Assembly: GCF_024171955.1 (NCBI RefSeq)
Contig: NZ_JAMTCS010000003.1
Span: 1 to 64,000, forward strand
Source of the DNA: Promicromonospora thailandica
Lineage (GTDB): Bacteria > Actinomycetota > Actinomycetes > Actinomycetales > Cellulomonadaceae
Reading direction: 5' to 3'
Length of the DNA stretch: 64,000 bases
Position 1 is the stretch's first letter; every line of letters starts with the position of its first letter. The notes under the pieces are model-generated. The model did no database searches. It was not told the origin of the DNA and was given only the letters and a program-made list of their open reading frames with translations. Below are positions 29,242 through 61,316 of the stretch, in pieces. The translations under genes and the position numbers were made by a program.

Positions 29242-29276
29242 GCCGGCAGGTCGGCCGGCCGGGATCACCCCTTCAC

Positions 29277-29338
29277 CTTCGAGACCGAGGTTGCTTGGCT
29301 TTGCGGGCCTCCAAAGGCAAGCAACCTCGGTCTCGAAG
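29277..29338. repeat. Dispersed palindromic element, family 1
   Basis: 27-base arms (CTTCGAGACCGAGGTTGCTT...CTTTG) with one mismatched pair flank an 8-base loop. It begins 35 bases beyond the cupin stop. Confidence 0.9.
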
Positions 29339-29451
29339 GGGAGCGGCGGGCGGTGGCCCGGCGGACGACGATCCGGCCGCCGCAGCCCCGGCGTCGCCAG
29401 GATCGCACCCCCGGCCGGCCGGGACACGCCGCTCCGGCGAGGGCCAAATGC

Positions 29452-52889: not shown

Positions 52890-53672
52890 GTGGAACGACT
52901 CAGCGTCTGGGCCCCTGACGGCCTGCCCGAGATCACCCCGGGCGACGACCTCGGCGGGCTCGTCGCCGACCTCCTGACCGGGCTCGACGAGCAGGACCGG
53001 CCGCAGGACGGCGACGTCGTCGTCGTGACCTCCAAGATCGTGTCCAAGGCCGAGGGCCGGGTGGTGGCCGCCGCCGACCGCGAGGAGGCGATCACGTCCG
53101 AGACGGTGCGGGTCGTGGCCCGGCGCGAGCGGCCCGGGCAGCCGCCGCTGCGGATCGTCGAGAACAAGCTCGGCCTCGTGATGGCCGCGGCGGGGGTGGA
53201 CGCGAGCAACACCCCGGAGGGGACGGTGCTGCTGCTGCCCGTCGACCCGGACGCGTCGGCCCGGACGATCCGCGCGGCGCTCACCCAGCGGCTCGGCCTG
53301 CGGCGGATCGGCGTCGTCGTCACGGACACCGCCGGCCGGCCCTGGCGCGACGCGCTGGTGGACATCGCGATCGGCTGCGCGGGCATCGCACCCACCGACG
53401 ACCTGCGCGGCAGCGCCGACAGCCACGGACGCCCGCTCAACGTGACCGTCACCGCGGTGGTGGACGAGATCGCCGCGGCGTCCGAGCTGGTCCGGGGCAA
53501 GTCGAGCGGGCGGGCGGTCGCCGTCGTCCGCGGCATGGGTCACCACGTGACCGACGACGACGGCCCGGGCGCCCGCGTGCTGGTACGGGGCAGCGCCGAC
53601 GACCTGTTCCGGGAGGGATCGGCCGAGGCCTACGCCCGCGGGCTGTCGGACGGCCGCGCGGCGCGGGACTGA
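52890..53672 (+). CDS. cofE: Coenzyme F420-0:L-glutamate ligase
   Basis: 260 residues from GTG 52890. Family motifs are [36 protein letters not shown] and [17 protein letters not shown]. The enzyme adds glutamate residues to F420-0 using GTP. In many actinobacteria this activity is the N-terminal half of FbiB; here the nitroreductase-like half is absent. It is divergent from the kinase, and the 120-base gap is AT-richer than its surroundings. TAGAAAGAT before the GTG may hold its -10. A perfect palindrome starts 11 bases after its stop. Confidence 0.92.
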
Positions 53673-53682
53673 CGCCCGCCCC

Positions 53683-53752
53683 TCACCTTCGAGACCGAGG
53701 TTGCTTGGCTTTGCGGGCCCGCAAAGCCAAGCAACCTCGGTCTCGAAGGTGA
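53683..53752. repeat. Perfect 70-bp palindrome, dispersed element family 1
   Basis: 35-base arms pair perfectly with no loop. They start TCACCTTCGAGACCGAGG and meet at GGGCCC (centre 53717/53718). It lies between convergent cofE and jetC and is the most intact copy of the family. Perfect cruciform-type palindromes are rarely retained in bacteria, so it may be recent or functional, for example as a terminator. Confidence 0.95.
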
Positions 53753-53805: not shown

Positions 53806-56800
53806 CTAGATCGTCGGACGGCGGGACGTGATCCGCGTGACCGGCGACGACTCGTCCGTCCCCGGGGCGGCGTCGGTCGGTGCCGGCACGGTGACCGACC
53901 AGTCCGGCTCGGGCCCGTCGCCGGCCGCCCCGGCGTCGGTATCCGCAGCGGGAGCCGGAACCGCGGCCGGAGCCGGAGCCGCCGCCGCAGGGGCCGGAGC
54001 CGACGGCGACGCCGGGGTCCCGGCGCCTCCCGGCGGCGCCGACCGGTCGGCTCCCGCCGGGTCAGGCACCGGCGACGACGGGTGCGTCCCGGTCGGTCGC
54101 GGTGCCTCGGTGGCCGGGGGCGGCGGGGGAGGCGGCGGTACCGGTGCGGTCGCGCGCTGCGGCCCGACGGCGCCGTCGCCACCCGGGCGGGCCGGCTCGG
54201 CGGCGCCCACCCCGCCGGCCGCCGTGCCCGTCGCGCCGGCCGCCGTGCCCACCCCACCGGCCGCCGTGCCCGTCCCGCCGCGCGTCGCCGACGGCACCGG
54301 GTCCACCTCGGGCAGCGGCTTCTCGAGCAGCACCACGTCCACGCGCGACTCCCGCATCTCCCGGCAGGTGGCCAGGCCGATGCCGCCCACGTAGTCCTCC
54401 AGGGTCTGGAGCAGCTTGAGCGGCGTCGCCAGGATCATGTGGAAGCCGAACGCCGCGAACGTGTCCATGGCGGTCCGGGTGAACGCGGTGTCCGCCTTGT
54501 CGAAGGCCTCGTCCAGCAGGATGGAGCCGTACGCCGGGGCGGCCGAGTCCGACGTCCCCGCGAGCTGGTAGCGCAGCGCCGCCGCGAGGCAGAACACCAC
54601 GAGCTTCTGGCGCTGGCCGCCGGACAGGCCCGCCGAGGAGTCGTGCACGGCCAGCGCGATGCCGCCCGCCGTGACCTCGACACCGGTGAAGTGCACGTGC
54701 CGGCGCGTGTCCAAGCACAGCGCCCGCCACGCACGGTCGGCGGGGTCGCTCGACCCGAGGCGCCGCACCAGCCGCTCGAGCACCTCGTACTCGGGCTCGG
54801 CCTCGCCCGTGAGCGTGTCGAGCGTCGAGAGGAACTCCTCGACCGCGGCCGGACGGCGTTCCTTGACCCGGATCTCCAGGTACCGGTCGGTGTCGAACGG
54901 GGACCGACGCAGCGCCGTGTTGACCCCCACGATCCGCTCGCGGATGGTCGCGGGCGCCTGCCTGATCTCGGCGGCGAGCTTGCGCAGCGCGCGGCGCGCC
55001 TGGTCGGTCAGGAGGTCGGAGAACCGCGCCTCCTGCTCGGGCAGGCGCGAGGTGCGGATGCGCTCCAGCACCTCCAGGTACCGGGTGCGGTCGCCCACCT
55101 GTGCCGTCAGGTCGCGCGTGATCGCGGGCCAGCGCCGGCGGAACTCCGACAGCAGCCCGACGATCTCCCGCTCCGCGGCGGCGGACGAGCGCAGCCCGGC
55201 CTCCCGCTCGGCGTCGAGCGTGCGCGACACGGCCAGCGAGACGTCGTCGATGACCTCGTGGGTCACCGTCGTGCGCACGGCGGCGTACCGCTTCTCGAGC
55301 TCCTCCCGGTGCGCGAGCGGGATCGCCGTCGTCGGTGCGTCACCGAGCTCGGCCACCACGCGCTCCAGGGAGCGGCGGTGCGCACGGGCCTCCGCGAGCG
55401 TGTCGGCCGCCTCGGCGGCCGCCGCACGCGCCTGGTCCAGCCGGGTCTCGGCGGCCGCGACGTCCTGCGACGCCTGCAGCAGGTCCATCGTGCCGTCGAG
55501 CAGCCGGTCGAACGACGCCTGCGCGTCGGTCAGGTCGGCCTCGGCGGTGTCGATGTCGACCTCGCGCCACTCCCGGCGGGCCACGTGCCGCAGCGTGAGC
55601 TGTCGGCGCACGGCCTCCCGCTGCTCGGCGACGGCGTCGGCCACCGCGGCGTCGGCCTCCGCGAGCCGGGCCTGGGTCGCGCGCGCGAGCTCGAGGAGCT
55701 GGTCGAGCCGGTCGTCGGCGTCCCAGCCGAGCGCCCAGTCCTCGACACCGGGCAGCTCGGGCTGCTCGATCTCCTCGGGGCCGTGCTTGACCAGCCCGTC
55801 GCGGGTCACGGCCCGCTCGTGCAGGTCGAGGCCCGACGGGTCGTCCACGCACAGGTAGTCGTACTGCTCGGACAGCCGGCGGTGCAGCCAGCCCGCCATG
55901 GGGCCCTCGGCCACCTCGATCTTGTGCACCAGGGAGGCGTCGTCGGCGGACCGGGGCGCGTCGTTGCGCACCCCCACCACGCGGTAGCGCAGACCCGGCC
56001 CGGCCCCCACGGCGCCCGCGACGGCCGCGCGGTGGGCCGGGGCCACGAGCACGAGCGTGGCCAGCGGCCGCAGGACCGCCTCGATCACGGGGCGCCAGGC
56101 GGCGTCGTCCTCGCGGACGCGCAGCAGCTCCGCCGCGAACGGGAGCGCCGAGACGTCGAGCCCCGCCCGCTCGGCCACCGCCCGGCGTGCCGCGGCCAGG
56201 TCGGCCGGCACGTTCGTGCGGTTCTGCCGTACCGCCTGGATCCGCGAGGCCACGGCCTCGTGCCGCAGCCCGACAGCGGAGCGCGCCGCCAGCGCCTCCC
56301 GGATGCCGGCGTCGAGCGCCTCGGGGGCCCGCTGCCTGCCGACGGCCGCCACGGCCCCCGTCGCGACCGACGGCAGCGCGCCCGTCGCCACCGACGGCAG
56401 CGAACCCGTCACCACCGACGGCACGGCCCCCGTCTCGACCGACGGCGTCGCCCCCGTCACCGCGGGCACCTGCCCGCTGGTCACGGCCGGGACGGCGCCG
56501 GTCAGGGTCGGCACGGCGCCGGTCGCGGGCGGCTTGGTGCCACCGAGCTCCCAGCGGGCCTTCTCCTTGAGCGCCGCGAACTCCGCGAACGTCTCCGGCA
56601 TGTTCATGCCCACGGACTCCAGGTCCGTGGCCAGCTCGCCGCGCCGGGTCCGCACCAGCGCCGCGATCTCGCCCGCGCGCTGCAGCCGGTCCGCCTGCGT
56701 GGCCAGGGCCTGCCCGCCGCGGGCGCCCAGCACGTTCACCGCCTGCTGGTGGGTGTTCGCCGCGACGTCGACCTCGGTGTCCGCCGCCTTGCGGTGGTGC

Positions 56801-57762
56801 TGCGCCCGCTCCTCGGCCGCCCTGGCCTCGGCCAGCGCCCGGTGCGCCAGGTCCAGCTTCCAGGCGTCCTTGAACGTCTCGAGCGACCCGCGCAGGGTCG
56901 CGGCGCGCACACCCGCCGCCGACCCCTCGTCGTACGCCTTGGTCAGCGACGCCAGACGGCTCAGGTGCTCGATCTGGCGGCGCGACGTCTCGATGTCGGC
57001 GTAGGCCCGTGCCACGTCCGCGAACTGCTCCACGGCCTGGGCGGCCAGCTCGAACGTGCCGGGCTCGTCCAGCATGTGCCCGCGGAACAGGTCGTCCAGG
57101 CTGCCCAGGTTCTTCGCGGACTGCGTGCGGTGCAGCAGCACCAGCGCCTGCTCCGAGCCGATGCCCAGGGCCTGCGTGAACGCCGCCGCGAACGGCCCGT
57201 GCCGCTCGCTCACCGTCGCCTCCGGCCATGCGGCGGACACGCCCGCGGCGTCGGGGCCGGACCGCACGTACCGCTCGAGGTCCAGCAGCCCCACCTCACC
57301 GGGCACCACGACGTGCAGCGTCGCCGGCGCCGACGAACCGCGCGTCAGGTGGAACAGCCGCACCAGCGTCACCACGGAACCCGGGCCCTCGGCGCCGTTC
57401 GCGTACCGCAGCAGCACGCCCGACCACGTCGCACCGGGGCGCAGATGGTCGGCCACGACCTCGCCCGTGCTCTCGTCCGTGCGGTGCCGCCAGGCGCCGC
57501 GCACGTAGGAGACGACGTCGCGGTCGCCCGCCTCGCGCTCCGTCGTGCCCGTGCCCGCCGCGGCGGCGTTGAACCGGAGGTGCTCCGGCGGGGTCAGGAC
57601 GGCGGCCACGGCGTCGACCACCGACGACTTGCCCGAGCCCGAGTGGCCCGTCAGCAGGAAACCCTCGCGCGGGACGGGCACCACGTGGTGCCCGGAGAAC
57701 GTTCCCCAGTTCACCAGCTCGATGCGCGCCAGGCGCCACTGTCCGGGGTGCGGCGACGTCAT
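53806..57762 (-). CDS. jetC: JetC/MksB-type SMC-like ATPase (Wadjet/MksBEF system)
   Basis: 1318 residues from ATG 57762, sharing one base with the jetB stop (TGATG). Head parts are Walker A GHSGSGKS (39-46), signature AGLSGGQRQKL and Walker B SILLDEAFDKAD. Long coiled-coil segments lie between them, with a hinge-like region near VREDDAAWRPVIEAVLRPLA. A repeat of VP-containing units is inserted at ~411-475, just before the hinge. The last ~165 residues form a low-complexity Pro/Ala/Gly tail. Wadjet complexes extrude DNA loops, and JetD cuts the plasmid. No JetD follows here. It is the SMC subunit of the operon with jetB and jetA. Confidence 0.85.
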   Translation of the reverse strand: MTSPHPGQWRLARIELVNWGTFSGHHVVPVPREGFLLTGHSGSGKSSVVDAVAAVLTPPEHLRFNAAAAGTGTTEREAGDRDVVSYVRGAWRHRTDESTGEVVADHLRPGATWSGVLLRYANGAEGPGSVVTLVRLFHLTRGSSAPATLHVVVPGEVGLLDLERYVRSGPDAAGVSAAWPEATVSERHGPFAAAFTQALGIGSEQALVLLHRTQSAKNLGSLDDLFRGHMLDEPGTFELAAQAVEQFADVARAYADIETSRRQIEHLSRLASLTKAYDEGSAAGVRAATLRGSLETFKDAWKLDLAHRALAEARAAEERAQHHRKAADTEVDVAANTHQQAVNVLGARGGQALATQADRLQRAGEIAALVRTRRGELATDLESVGMNMPETFAEFAALKEKARWELGGTKPPATGAVPTLTGAVPAVTSGQVPAVTGATPSVETGAVPSVVTGSLPSVATGALPSVATGAVAAVGRQRAPEALDAGIREALAARSAVGLRHEAVASRIQAVRQNRTNVPADLAAARRAVAERAGLDVSALPFAAELLRVREDDAAWRPVIEAVLRPLATLVLVAPAHRAAVAGAVGAGPGLRYRVVGVRNDAPRSADDASLVHKIEVAEGPMAGWLHRRLSEQYDYLCVDDPSGLDLHERAVTRDGLVKHGPEEIEQPELPGVEDWALGWDADDRLDQLLELARATQARLAEADAAVADAVAEQREAVRRQLTLRHVARREWREVDIDTAEADLTDAQASFDRLLDGTMDLLQASQDVAAAETRLDQARAAAAEAADTLAEARAHRRSLERVVAELGDAPTTAIPLAHREELEKRYAAVRTTVTHEVIDDVSLAVSRTLDAEREAGLRSSAAAEREIVGLLSEFRRRWPAITRDLTAQVGDRTRYLEVLERIRTSRLPEQEARFSDLLTDQARRALRKLAAEIRQAPATIRERIVGVNTALRRSPFDTDRYLEIRVKERRPAAVEEFLSTLDTLTGEAEPEYEVLERLVRRLGSSDPADRAWRALCLDTRRHVHFTGVEVTAGGIALAVHDSSAGLSGGQRQKLVVFCLAAALRYQLAGTSDSAAPAYGSILLDEAFDKADTAFTRTAMDTFAAFGFHMILATPLKLLQTLEDYVGGIGLATCREMRESRVDVVLLEKPLPEVDPVPSATRGGTGTAAGGVGTAAGATGTAAGGVGAAEPARPGGDGAVGPQRATAPVPPPPPPPPATEAPRPTGTHPSSPVPDPAGADRSAPPGGAGTPASPSAPAPAAAAPAPAAVPAPAADTDAGAAGDGPEPDWSVTVPAPTDAAPGTDESSPVTRITSRRPTI
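56342..56524 (-). repeat. VP-repeat insertion in the coiled coil of jetC
   Basis: About eight coding units of consensus TGAVPSV (TGAVPTL, TGAVPAV, TSGQVPAV, TGATPSV and so on) form ~60 residues with many prolines and no coiled-coil propensity. They break the N-terminal arm of the SMC-like protein. The near-identical units suggest slippage or unequal exchange. Confidence 0.85.
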
Positions 57763-58478
57763 CAGCTCTCCTTCGCCAGTCGGGCGTACTCGGTGCTCAG
57801 CGCCGCCACCTGGTCCGCGCCGAACACGGTCCGCAGCACCGGCGAGACGGCCGCGCGGTCCCCGCCGAGCGGCTCCAGGATGCCCGACTCGACCAGCCGC
57901 GCCCACGTCGCGTCCAGCTGCCGGGAGAAGTCCATGGGCGAGGCGCCGCCTCGCCGCCGGTACGCGCCGAGGTGGTCGGCGACCTCGTCCCGGCTCACCG
58001 CCACGCGGCTGTCCGGCGCGTCCAGCAGCAGGCCGCGCAGGTGCAGCAGCAGAGCGGTGTCGAGGAACGTCAGGGCCACCTCGCGCACCACCCGCGGCGC
58101 GTCCGCCGTCGGCACGTCGCGCACGAAGGCGACCTGCGAGTCGGCGTCCACCACCAGGTCGAGGTACTGGTCGGCCAGGCGCTCGCGGACCACGTCCTCG
58201 TTCGTCAGCAGCGCGCGCCAGGTGTCCGGGTCGGTCTCCGCCGCGAGGTACGGGCCGCGTACCAGGCGGGCCAGGGCGAGGCGGGCCGGGGCCGGCAGCG
58301 TGCCGCGGTCGTCCGGCCAGAGGCGGTTCCCGCGGCCGGCGTCGTCGGGCTCGCGGCCGACGGCGCTCCCCGCGGTGCTCCCGGGGGACGGCGCGGACGT
58401 CGTCCGGCCGGCGGGGGTTCCGGGCCGTGCCGCGCGCAGGTCCGCGCGCGCGGGGCCGGTCACGTCGGGTTCTGTCAC
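57762..58478 (-). CDS. jetB: JetB/MksE-like subunit (DUF4194)
   Basis: 238 residues from GTG 58478, overlapping the jetA stop by four bases (GTGA). The first ~60 residues are disordered and Pro/Arg-rich. The rest matches DUF4194: ARLVRGPYLAAETDPDTWRA, DADSQVAFVRDVP, a stretch of Leu-rich helices and SPVLRTVFGADQ. In Wadjet and MksBEF systems this winged-helix subunit bridges kleisin and SMC. The order jetA-jetB-jetC is canonical. Confidence 0.85.
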   Translation of the reverse strand: MTEPDVTGPARADLRAARPGTPAGRTTSAPSPGSTAGSAVGREPDDAGRGNRLWPDDRGTLPAPARLALARLVRGPYLAAETDPDTWRALLTNEDVVRERLADQYLDLVVDADSQVAFVRDVPTADAPRVVREVALTFLDTALLLHLRGLLLDAPDSRVAVSRDEVADHLGAYRRRGGASPMDFSRQLDATWARLVESGILEPLGGDRAAVSPVLRTVFGADQVAALSTEYARLAKES

Positions 58479-59992
58479 GGGACTCGCTCCTCGAACTGGT
58501 GCTGGGGAAGGACGGCCCGGCGCGCGACGCCGCGCGAGGACCGCCAGCTCACGTCCTCGGTGCCGCCCGTGGTCGTGCCGTGCTCCTCGGCGAGCGTCAG
58601 CAGGCCGACGACGCTCGCGGCGCCCTGCGTGGCCGGGTGCGCGGCGAGCACGGAGGCGACGGTGGCCCGGCCGGCGCCGTCCACCACGTCGTTCACGTGC
58701 CCGCGCAGCTCGTCCACGTCGATCTCCGAGTCGCGGGCCATGGCCCGCAGCGCCGTGAGCGAGACGGGGCGGGGCGCCGCGGCGGGCGCGGCCTCGGGTG
58801 CCTCCGCGTCCTCGCCACCGGGGTTGTGCGGCACGAACCCGCCGGGGGACCGGGGGGCCACGTCGCCGAGGCGCAGCGTCAGGCGCATCTCGGTGCCCGC
58901 CGGGACGTCGGCCGCGGCGGCGAGCGCGGCGTCCTGGGCCTCGCCGAGCAGGCGCCGCAGCGCGCGCTCCGCGGGGAGCTCGCCGGAGCGGACCATGCGC
59001 TGCAACGCCCGGCGCAGCGCCGTCATCGTGTCGGTCAGCTCGTCCGCGGCGTCCTGCAGCGTGGGCAGCAGACGGCGCAGGGCGGACGCCTCCGGCGGCG
59101 CGAGGTGCACCGAGTCGAGCACGCGGCCGACGTCGTCCTGCGCGCGGTGCTCCGCCTGCCGCAGGAGGTCCCGGAACGCGACCAGGCCGCGTCCCGCCTC
59201 CGACTCGGCGAGGTGGTCGACGCCGCGGTAGATGTCGTCCAGGAACGTGTCGCGCGAGCCGTCGGACTCCAGGAGCCGGCGCCGCAGCTCACGGTCGGTG
59301 CGCTCCAGCTCGGTGCGCACCCGGGCCAGGTCGGCGGGGATGTCGCCGGCGAGCGCGAGCACCTCGCGGGCGCGCTCCGCGGCCGCCTCCGGTGGCAGCG
59401 GCGCGGAGTCGCCGCGGCGGGCGCGCTCGATGCGGGCGTCGAGGGCGGCCCGCTGCTCCAGCAGCGACTCCAGGCGCGCCTCGGGGTCGGGGTCGGCCTC
59501 GTCGGCCAGCGCGTGCAGCCCGTCGAGCACCGCTCCGAGCCGGGACGGGGTGACGGCGGGGTGCGGCCTGCCGAGGCGGGCGACGAAGCGGAGGGCGACC
59601 AGGGCGCCGTCCGACAGCTCGACCGTCTCGGTGGCGGTGTCGCTCGTGGCCGGCGCGGCCCGGCGCCGGACGAGCACGCCCTCGTCGATCCACTCCGAGA
59701 CGTAGAACCAGCCGGAGTACGGCAGCTCGAAGCCGGCGCGCCGCAGCTCGGGGATGTCGTCGTCGATGCGGTCGGCGAGCTGTTCGACCGGCAGCCGGCG
59801 CCGTGCCGCGCCGAGGTGGCGCTCCAGCAGCACCACGGCGGCCGCGGCGTTCCGCGACCGCAGCAGCACCCACGCGGGATGCTCCTGGAGGAGGGCGCGC
59901 ACGGCGCGCGCCGCCTGGCCGCGGCGCCCCGAACCGTGCCCGGCGGCCGGCCGGGCCGCAGCGCCGTCGCCCGGTGAGCTCGCAGTACCCAT
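58475..59992 (-). CDS. jetA: JetA/MksF-like kleisin subunit (DUF3375)
   Basis: 505 residues from ATG 59992, with TACTCT 7 bases upstream as a -10 for a leaderless transcript. DUF3375 features are ALLQEHPAWVLLRSRNAAA at the N terminus, ADRIDDDIPELRRAGFELP and WFYVSEWIDEGVLVRR. Coiled-coil segments (EQRAALDARIERARRG, VRTELERTDRELRRRLLE) and a C-terminal winged-helix region follow. In Wadjet it is the kleisin-like subunit linking JetC heads. It is the first gene of the minus-strand jet operon and is divergent from the XRE gene. Confidence 0.88.
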   Translation of the reverse strand: MGTASSPGDGAAARPAAGHGSGRRGQAARAVRALLQEHPAWVLLRSRNAAAAVVLLERHLGAARRRLPVEQLADRIDDDIPELRRAGFELPYSGWFYVSEWIDEGVLVRRRAAPATSDTATETVELSDGALVALRFVARLGRPHPAVTPSRLGAVLDGLHALADEADPDPEARLESLLEQRAALDARIERARRGDSAPLPPEAAAERAREVLALAGDIPADLARVRTELERTDRELRRRLLESDGSRDTFLDDIYRGVDHLAESEAGRGLVAFRDLLRQAEHRAQDDVGRVLDSVHLAPPEASALRRLLPTLQDAADELTDTMTALRRALQRMVRSGELPAERALRRLLGEAQDAALAAAADVPAGTEMRLTLRLGDVAPRSPGGFVPHNPGGEDAEAPEAAPAAAPRPVSLTALRAMARDSEIDVDELRGHVNDVVDGAGRATVASVLAAHPATQGAASVVGLLTLAEEHGTTTGGTEDVSWRSSRGVARRAVLPQHQFEERVP

Positions 59993-60121: not shown

Positions 60122-60427
60122 ATGGCCCAGCGTCGACGGGAGGGCGCCTTGCTCACGACCGCAGCCCAGATCCTGATCAGGATCCGAGACGAGCGGCAGC
60201 TCAGCATGAGCTCGCTCGCGGTACTGGCCGGCGTGCCGACGTCGACGGTGAGCCGCATCGAGTCGGGGCGGGTCGAGCCGACGCTCGGGATGATCCGGCG
60301 CCTCGCCCTGGGCGCCGGGTACCACCTGCACCTGCAGTACTACGACCTGTTCACCGGGCGCCTCGAGGACCATCCCGTCGGGGCCGGCGACGTCGACGAG
60401 GAGGGGGAGGGCGGGCGCGACCGGTAG
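60122..60427 (+). CDS. XRE-family helix-turn-helix regulator
   Basis: 101 residues if read from ATG 60122. A TTG at 60149 has GGGAGG 5 bases upstream and would give ~92 residues. The HTH is clear: RIRDERQLSMSSLAVLAGVP, then TSTVSRIESGRVEPTLGMIR. The short Asp/Glu/Gly tail resembles small repressors or antitoxin-like regulators. TATAGAGT near 60084 could hold its promoter. It is divergent from jetA with a ~130-base gap, so it may regulate the jet operon. Confidence 0.8.
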   Translation: MAQRRREGALLTTAAQILIRIRDERQLSMSSLAVLAGVPTSTVSRIESGRVEPTLGMIRRLALGAGYHLHLQYYDLFTGRLEDHPVGAGDVDEEGEGGRDR

Positions 60428-60632: not shown

Positions 60633-61316
60633 ATGCCGAACGTCATGATCCCCGCCGCGGTGCGGGCGGACGTGGAGACGCTGTGGGCGTTCCACGACCT
60701 GCGGCACGAGCCGCGGCCCGTCGACGTCTGCATCGGCCTGGGCGGTCACGACCTCGGCGTGGCCGACTACACGGCCGACCTCTACCTCCAGGGACTGTTC
60801 CGGCAGATCGTGTTCACGGGCGCGAACGCCCCGACGACGGTGGACGCCTTCCCCGAGGGCGAGGCCTTCGGCTACCGCGACCACGCGGTCGCGCGGGGAG
60901 TCCCGGCCGATGCCGTGCTCGTGGAGCCGTCCGCGACGAACACCAGCGAGAACCTGGAGTACAGCCGCAAGGTGCTCGCGGACCACCGCATCGAGCCGTC
61001 GTCCGTGCTCCTGGTCTCCCACCCGTACCAGCGGCGGCGGGCGTTCGCGACGTGCCGCGTGGTCTGGCCGGAGGTCGACGTGCTGTGCGTCTCCCGTCCC
61101 CTGGGCCTCGACGCGTACGTCGGGACCATCGGGGACGCCGACCGCGTGGTCGACATGCTCGTCGGCGAGACGCAGCGGCTCACCCTGTACGCGGACCGAG
61201 GCTTCATCGCCCACGAGGAGGACGTGCCGGACGACGTCATGGGCGCCTTCGACCGCCTCGTGTCGGCCGGCTACACGTCACGGCTCGTGGAGGACCGGCG
61301 TCCGATCGACGTGTAA
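60633..61316 (+). CDS. YdcF-like (DUF218) family protein
   Basis: 227 residues from ATG 60633. The DUF218 pattern is present: VDVCIGLGGHDLGVADYTADLY, FRQIVFTGANAP, SATNTSENLEYS and VLLVSHPYQRRRAFATC. Unlike membrane-bound SanA-type members it has no membrane helix, resembling cytoplasmic YdcF. The biochemical role is not established; nucleotide or SAM-like ligand binding has been suggested. The leaderless-type start and upstream repeat suggest separate regulation. Confidence 0.8.
   Translation: MPNVMIPAAVRADVETLWAFHDLRHEPRPVDVCIGLGGHDLGVADYTADLYLQGLFRQIVFTGANAPTTVDAFPEGEAFGYRDHAVARGVPADAVLVEPSATNTSENLEYSRKVLADHRIEPSSVLLVSHPYQRRRAFATCRVVWPEVDVLCVSRPLGLDAYVGTIGDADRVVDMLVGETQRLTLYADRGFIAHEEDVPDDVMGAFDRLVSAGYTSRLVEDRRPIDV

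Follow-up and report, generated by a model that had tools for sequence, protein, structure and literature searches.

The first 64,000 nucleotides of contig NZ_JAMTCS010000003.1 of Promicromonospora thailandica (assembly GCF_024171955.1), hereafter the window, harbor a three-gene operon that encodes the kleisin JetA, the KITE subunit JetB and the ATPase JetC, related to the structural maintenance of chromosomes (SMC) proteins, with no gene for the nuclease subunit JetD (MksG) of Wadjet type I/MksBEFG systems. All three genes lie on the minus strand: jetA (58475..59992, ATG start) overlaps jetB (57762..58478, GTG start) by 4 bases, and jetB overlaps jetC (53806..57762; 1318 amino acids) by a single base. 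Downstream of jetC stands the convergent cofE gene (52890..53672, plus strand; F420_ligase, 172 bits), and upstream of jetA lie an XRE-family helix-turn-helix gene (60122..60427, plus strand; HTH_3, 38.5 bits) and a ydcF-like DUF218 gene (60633..61316, plus strand; 58 bits); cofE and ydcF served as markers of the site. A previous sequence-only reading had proposed the canonical overlapping order jetA-jetB-jetC, which the coordinates and the Pfam and PADLOC matches bear out. It was equally right on the lack of jetD in the operon, on cofE occupying the other strand downstream of jetC, and on the upstream position of xre and ydcF, both of which are divergent from jetA.

The three subunits that Wadjet type I shares with nuclease-less MksBEF complexes are all present. 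JetA matches Pfam DUF3375 with 365 bits (cut-off 28.6), JetB matches DUF4194 with 112 bits (cut-off 32.7), and JetC combines AAA_29 with SbcC_Walker_B. The top PADLOC models were JetA1 (PDLC00460, 462 bits), JetB1 (PDLC00481, 199 bits) and JetC1 (PDLC00518, 1087 bits), and the assignment to type I is our reading of the “1” in these model names. In single-sequence searches against solved Wadjet chains, JetC matched the E. coli chain 8as8_A (E=1.4e-58) and JetA the E. coli chain 8q72_E (E=2e-13), while JetB, whose identity comes from Pfam, PADLOC and alignment, matched none. The ATPase motifs of JetC, namely the Walker A motif GHSGSGKS (57625..57648), the ATP-binding cassette signature GLSGGQRQ (54607..54630) and the Walker B motif SILLDEAF (54502..54525), all on the minus strand, are complete in all 15 rows of a 78-row set that represent operons of the window's type (hereafter window-type), as expected of the Wadjet type I motor.

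No JetD found at the locus or in the genome

The stop codons of jetC and cofE are separated by 133 bases, which leave room for at most a fragment of jetD. The genome (5.38 Mb in 24 contigs, 99.8% complete) was searched with the Pfam profiles JetD_C (PF09983) and DUF3322 (PF11795), neither of which matched anywhere in it, and both of which matched in the control C. glutamicum. A profile built from 15 JetDs of the same subfamily likewise found no match in the genome at E values up to 10; as a positive control, it recovered JetD in three of 12 congeners (E from 6e-61 to 3e-45), two additional congener matches at E 0.2 and 0.5 being taken as noise. The JetDs of these three congeners sit in other jet operons, belonging to clade X in two cases and to a sister of clade Y in one (both clades are described below). 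A diverged jetD beside jetC was ruled out by running a JetD hidden Markov model (HMM) over six-frame open reading frames of at least 60 amino acids from the fetched loci, and a broader JetD HMM returned the same family loci.

Two of the checks suggested by the sequence-only reading, a genome-wide JetD profile search and a comparison of the locus in relatives, were run: three models gave zero matches, which does not bear out its option of a JetD encoded elsewhere in the genome, and no relative scored at the cofE/xre-ydcF site has jetD. The Toprim nuclease that Wadjet type I requires was found neither at the locus nor in the whole genome. Because the nuclease is missing, the operon would not count as a Wadjet system under strict membership, and judged from its sequence it should work like the Wadjet motor or an MksBEF complex.

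The site itself is conserved. The order cofE-jetC-jetB-jetA-xre-ydcF is kept in nine other fetched Promicromonospora loci (in one of these, the contig stops short of cofE) and likewise in four from Myceligenerans, and two Antribacter loci share the jetCBA-xre-ydcF order, cofE not being found near the operon in one of them. The operon was scored in 11 of the 13 sampled Promicromonospora genomes, the other two entering only the JetD search, and lies on one contig in 10 of these 11; among those 10, the contig of G077 ends in the jetC tail and G111 has jetC in two frames. The eleventh genome has jetA in two pieces on two contigs, one of them beside xre.

Descent of the operon and change in its subunits

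Scanning named genomes with two peptide patterns from window-type JetC yielded 52 loci, the nearest of which come from Promicromonospora, Myceligenerans and Antribacter. These three genera contribute 15 loci, of which three end with the contig in jetC and the remaining 12 all lack jetD according to the JetD HMM. The other 37 loci, from Arthrobacter, Nesterenkonia, Microbacterium, Georgenia, Cellulomonas, Demequina, Eggerthellales and others, have jetD after jetC in 36 cases, two of these incomplete where the contig stops; the remaining locus breaks off within jetC.

A JetC tree was then built from 142 loci, 63 with and 79 without jetD, after exclusion of 23 loci that duplicated family genomes or were broken, incomplete or doubled, and of eight in which jetA and jetB are not neighbors. 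In it, the 16 window-type rows group as a single clade (support 1.0), and the eight successive sister groups of this clade, 41 rows in total, all have jetD, with several of the nodes between those groups weakly supported (0.11-0.61). All 16 window-type rows were scored as JetD-less, including L050, whose contig stops after the jetC core and whose genome has its only JetD in another operon. The 78-row tree is concordant and places its 15 window-type rows (support 100) as sister to a JetD-bearing row. Fitch parsimony over the 142 loci gave 11 changes of JetD state with a JetD-less midpoint root. For the window clade, the direction of change read from these trees is clear, namely loss, and the option of a lost JetD, which the sequence-only reading had also listed, is supported by an operon nested among JetD-bearing operons and by the lack of jetD in every relative scored at the site. 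The nuclease would have been lost once, no later than in the ancestor shared by Promicromonospora, Myceligenerans and Antribacter, the operon being kept since as JetABC.

The operon has been under purifying selection since the nuclease loss. Ratios of nonsynonymous to synonymous substitution (dN/dS, Nei-Gojobori) across nine genome pairs were 0.06-0.25 for jetA, 0.09-0.32 for jetB without its first 50 residues and 0.10-0.14 for jetC without its tail, the comparison genes giving 0.08-0.18 (cofE, eight pairs) and 0.06-0.57 (xre).

Change in the subunits was gauged on residues that 90% or more of 27 chosen JetD-bearing relatives share, comparing five window-clade rows with five leave-out control groups of five JetD-bearing rows each. 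All five window-clade rows kept 54 of 105 such residues in JetA, versus 473 of 579 in the pooled controls (0.72-0.90 by group), 39 of 56 in JetB versus 249 of 295 (0.73-0.93), and 187 of 228 (0.82) in JetC versus 1057 of 1226 (0.79-0.92). Residues lost by all five rows amounted to 11 of 105 in JetA versus 0 of 579 in controls and to 2 of 56 in JetB versus 1 of 295. Fisher tests for JetA, JetB and JetC gave 3e-10, 0.013 and 0.10 for residues kept and 7e-10, 0.07 and 6e-4 for residues lost, values that are rough as the pooled controls reuse columns. Across 16 window-clade and 36 JetD-bearing rows, median retention was 0.83 versus 0.97 for JetA and 0.84 versus 0.97 for JetB, and JetA-minus-JetC retention was at most -0.068 in window-clade rows and at least -0.044 in JetD-bearing rows. 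All three subunits have drifted, JetA most, past every control.

Taking JetA to be MksF, as we do from the operon order (mksFEBG), it is the nuclease-docking subunit that changed most, since in C. glutamicum MksG is reported to contact MksBEF through MksF; this is suggestive, not proof. The C. glutamicum study (PMC7083940) reports a two-hybrid analysis in which MksG joins the complex via MksF, and a pull-down with MksB in which MksG was not enriched. JetA-specific decay as a general rule of nuclease loss was rejected: strong in the window clade, it is absent from clade Y and weaker in the strongly diverged clade V (four rows), where two of 12 JetD-bearing rows are equally low and two of the four genomes have JetD in another operon. 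The JetB N-terminus, where a review places an IFDR motif that contacts JetD, was uninformative as a mark of JetD loss: an LWxxDxGxL N-terminal motif is retained in 11 aligned JetBs, that of the window included, with or without JetD.

Neighboring features and other JetD-less operons

The divergent XRE protein would probably regulate the operon. At E values up to 1e-8 it is found in 18 of 121 genomes of the family, namely 11 of 11 Promicromonospora, four Myceligenerans, two Antribacter and one elsewhere, so that 17 of the 18 belong to the genera of the window-type operon, and it was detected in none of the fetched flanks of the JetD-bearing named loci at E up to 1e-4. Neighbor clustering of 14 window-type loci returned ydcF and xre as recurrent neighbors, together with two recurrent same-strand downstream frames that overlie cofE and its neighbor and were read by eye as antisense frames of these two genes. 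A replacement gene downstream of jetC was rejected on this basis, the clustering having given only site markers (named by eye) and no recognized recurrent nuclease.

Between jetC and cofE lies a 64-base palindrome (53686..53749, unstranded), which is perfect as first described. A second copy occurs in the window at 29276-29339, the common arm being TTCGAGACCGAGGTTGCTTCGCTTTGA. This arm has 46 matches in the genome at up to two mismatches and 0 in a reversed control; the palindrome is therefore a member of a repeat family dispersed across the genome, which rules it out as a part of the operon, and it may be a terminator or a repetitive extragenic palindrome (REP)-like element.

JetC carries two additions. 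Tandem repeat detection and alignment revealed a TGxVPxV-type tandem repeat inserted in a coiled-coil arm (56354..56533, minus strand), restricted to Promicromonospora among the aligned window-type rows and variable between genomes. The protein ends in a Pro/Ala/Gly/Ser/Thr-rich tail of variable length (53809..54330, minus strand), which comprises 160-338 residues in Promicromonospora, with a linker made up of 73-85% P, A, G, S and T and a conserved tip (53809-53919). In 10 of 10 Promicromonospora tails examined, this tip contains DWSxTV close to the C-terminus and finishes with T-[ST]-RRP followed by two residues; it resembles a docking peptide. In Myceligenerans, JetC shows no more than a single repeat-like unit and lacks such a tail, and Antribacter JetC has different, shorter C-terminal ends. 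As insert and tail are missing or different in these genera, neither is required for the nuclease-less state.

Contig C13 of the same genome (68000-87900; locus L041, 8499-14060) bears another jetABC operon that lacks jetD, its jetC being followed on the opposite strand by an M15-type peptidase gene (named by eye). This operon is part of clade X, which comprises 46 rows of the family tree, 42 of them without jetD, and whose recurrent neighbors, also named by eye, are leuS (22 of 46 loci) and degV and comEA (about 11 each). Like the window operon, it has jetABC without jetD at a chromosomal site; unlike it, it has jetD in a few of its clade X relatives, and its JetC is about 30% identical to that of the window over the matched part. 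In the congener G077, the stretch from jetC to this peptidase gene holds a jetD; the window genome, G006 and G087 have the same flank without one. At the clade X site, jetD is present or absent within one genus. Since parsimony puts a JetD-less state at the midpoint root, the data do not distinguish loss from gain of jetD in clade X.

A separate JetD-less clade, clade Y, is formed by the jetABC loci L061, L062, L065-L069, L110 and L111 from four genera of the family, with topA (named by eye) nearby in six of nine. Further jetABC loci without jetD occur outside the family (L199-L202, L204, L207-L209 and L211-L213), the genomes of L211 and L212 having JetD in another operon. That there are separate JetD-less clades, among them the window clade, clade Y and clade X, is certain; loss would be the simpler direction in the window clade as well as in clade Y.

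In the sampled genomes of the order, JetABC often occurs without JetD. Within the family, JetA was found in 98 of 121 genomes and JetD_C in 18, all with JetA, leaving 80 of 98 JetA genomes without a JetD_C match. Across 119 genomes of the order, JetA occurred in 49, JetD_C in 27 and both in 26, so that JetD_C is missing from 23 of the 49 genomes with JetA; the window's own family accounts for nine of these 49, and outside it the fraction is 16 of 40. Seven of these 16 are from one family (f11), where jetA and jetB are not adjacent: five have jetB roughly 2.5 to 5.5 kb from jetA, and in two neither jetB nor jetC was found within the fetched 11 kb. Dispersed jet loci of this family are L175, L180, L183-L186, L188 and L192; in L188, jetB and jetC lie about 2.6 kb and about 4.5 kb from jetA, and the stretches fetched for L186 and L192 showed neither gene.

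Probable function of a nuclease-free JetABC and its alternatives

We consider it moderately probable, on the basis of the sequence comparisons, that the operon descends from a Wadjet type I complex which, after a single loss of its nuclease, was retained as a nuclease-free loop extruder, most likely acting on the chromosome. That a nuclease-free operon has been kept at one chromosomal place in three genera suggests that it turned to a new, non-cutting task. Mechanistically, JetC would form an ATP-driven DNA loop extruder with the kleisin JetA and the KITE protein JetB, and without JetD to fire at the end of extrusion, the complex would compact, tether or segregate DNA uncut. Its main substrate would most likely be the host chromosome, as for P. 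aeruginosa MksBEF, because the operon occupies a fixed chromosomal site and was found across the genus, as far as sampled, alongside canonical Smc and ScpB. The genome contains a canonical ScpB and one SMC_hinge match (in a 1333-residue frame). Among 72,556 plasmids, only three matches were obtained, none covering more than 80% of the query, which we count in favor of a chromosomal role. Taken with purifying selection and the P. aeruginosa precedent, the fixed site and genus-wide presence make chromosome organization the most likely role. The nuclease-less MksBEF of P. aeruginosa is reported to contribute to chromosome organization (PMC7083940, PMC10586767).

Compared with known systems, the operon resembles the Wadjet type I/MksBEFG systems of E. 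coli GF4-3 and C. glutamicum in its ordered, overlapping JetA, JetB and JetC genes and its PADLOC type 1 matches, and differs from them in having no JetD at the locus or in the genome and in the loss from JetA of residues conserved in JetD-bearing relatives. With P. aeruginosa MksBEF, to which it is likened by gene content and not by sequence, it shares the status of a three-subunit SMC complex with no nuclease; unlike that complex, it belongs to another phylum and has known JetD-bearing nearest relatives, so that the loss can be placed on a branch. Smc-ScpAB is likewise a chromosomal SMC complex with KITE and kleisin subunits, although the window operon derives from different subunit families. 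Among the literature matches listed, no title or abstract start describes a JetD-less JetABC in actinobacteria.

Several observations weigh against a nuclease-free chromosomal loop extruder. The C. glutamicum study (PMC7083940) assigns MksBEFG to plasmids only and not to the chromosome. Change after the loss is not confined to JetA: JetC lost 4 of 228 conserved residues in all five window rows, versus 0 of 1226 in controls, and its median retention (0.910 versus 0.971 over the 16 and 36 rows) places the motor, too, below its relatives. Clade Y, with nine JetD-less rows, displays no JetA-specific decay, so nuclease loss is not generally accompanied by the JetA signal. In a congener with a single-contig genome (L052, 4393-8282), jetC is split into two frames beside the repeat insert, through mutation or assembly error; the operon may therefore be dispensable, unless the assembly is at fault.

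An unlikely alternative, which nonetheless deserves consideration, is that JetABC still restrains plasmids without cutting them, extruding and entrapping small circles and thereby keeping them from being replicated, expressed or partitioned. The operon retains the motor with its ATPase motifs, and the review PMC10586767 puts forward that Smc5/6 might compact circular DNA and keep genes from being expressed; against this, all four subunits were reported to be needed against plasmids (PMC10123090), and a site fixed across three genera is, from general knowledge, unusual for a defense locus. It is improbable that an unrelated nuclease encoded elsewhere substitutes for JetD: the conserved tip of the JetC tail could be its docking peptide, but this tail is missing in Myceligenerans and different in Antribacter, conserved JetA residues are lost, and the clustering of the 14 window-type loci brought up no recognized nuclease.

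We give very little credence to a JetD from other jet operons acting in trans in some strains: three of the 13 genus genomes do carry one JetD gene each, yet each lies in another jet operon, and 10 of 13, the window genome included, have none. Equally slight is the case for a decaying remnant of a lost Wadjet system, in line with the altered JetA positions and the split jetC of one congener and largely contradicted by the dN/dS values of the three open frames, far below 1 in nine genome pairs, by intact motifs and by retention across three genera. The least credible explanation, a jetD missed through an assembly gap or extreme divergence, could appeal to the 24 contigs, but completeness is 99.8%, cofE follows jetC on the same contig and other assemblies have the same arrangement.

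Beyond this locus, a tentative reading, to which we lend slightly less than even weight, is that plasmid-cutting Wadjet systems of the Actinomycetales turned more than once into nuclease-free chromosomal SMC complexes, the loss of the nuclease converting an immune sensor into a chromosome organizer; its lower standing reflects the ambiguous direction of change in clade X. If it holds, this genome would run three SMC systems, Smc-ScpAB and two JetABCs. Since 80 of the 98 JetA genomes of the family are without a JetD_C match, a JetABC match alone cannot be called plasmid defense. Close relatives with and without the nuclease, even congeners at the clade X site, make it testable whether a Wadjet motor acts on chromosomes.

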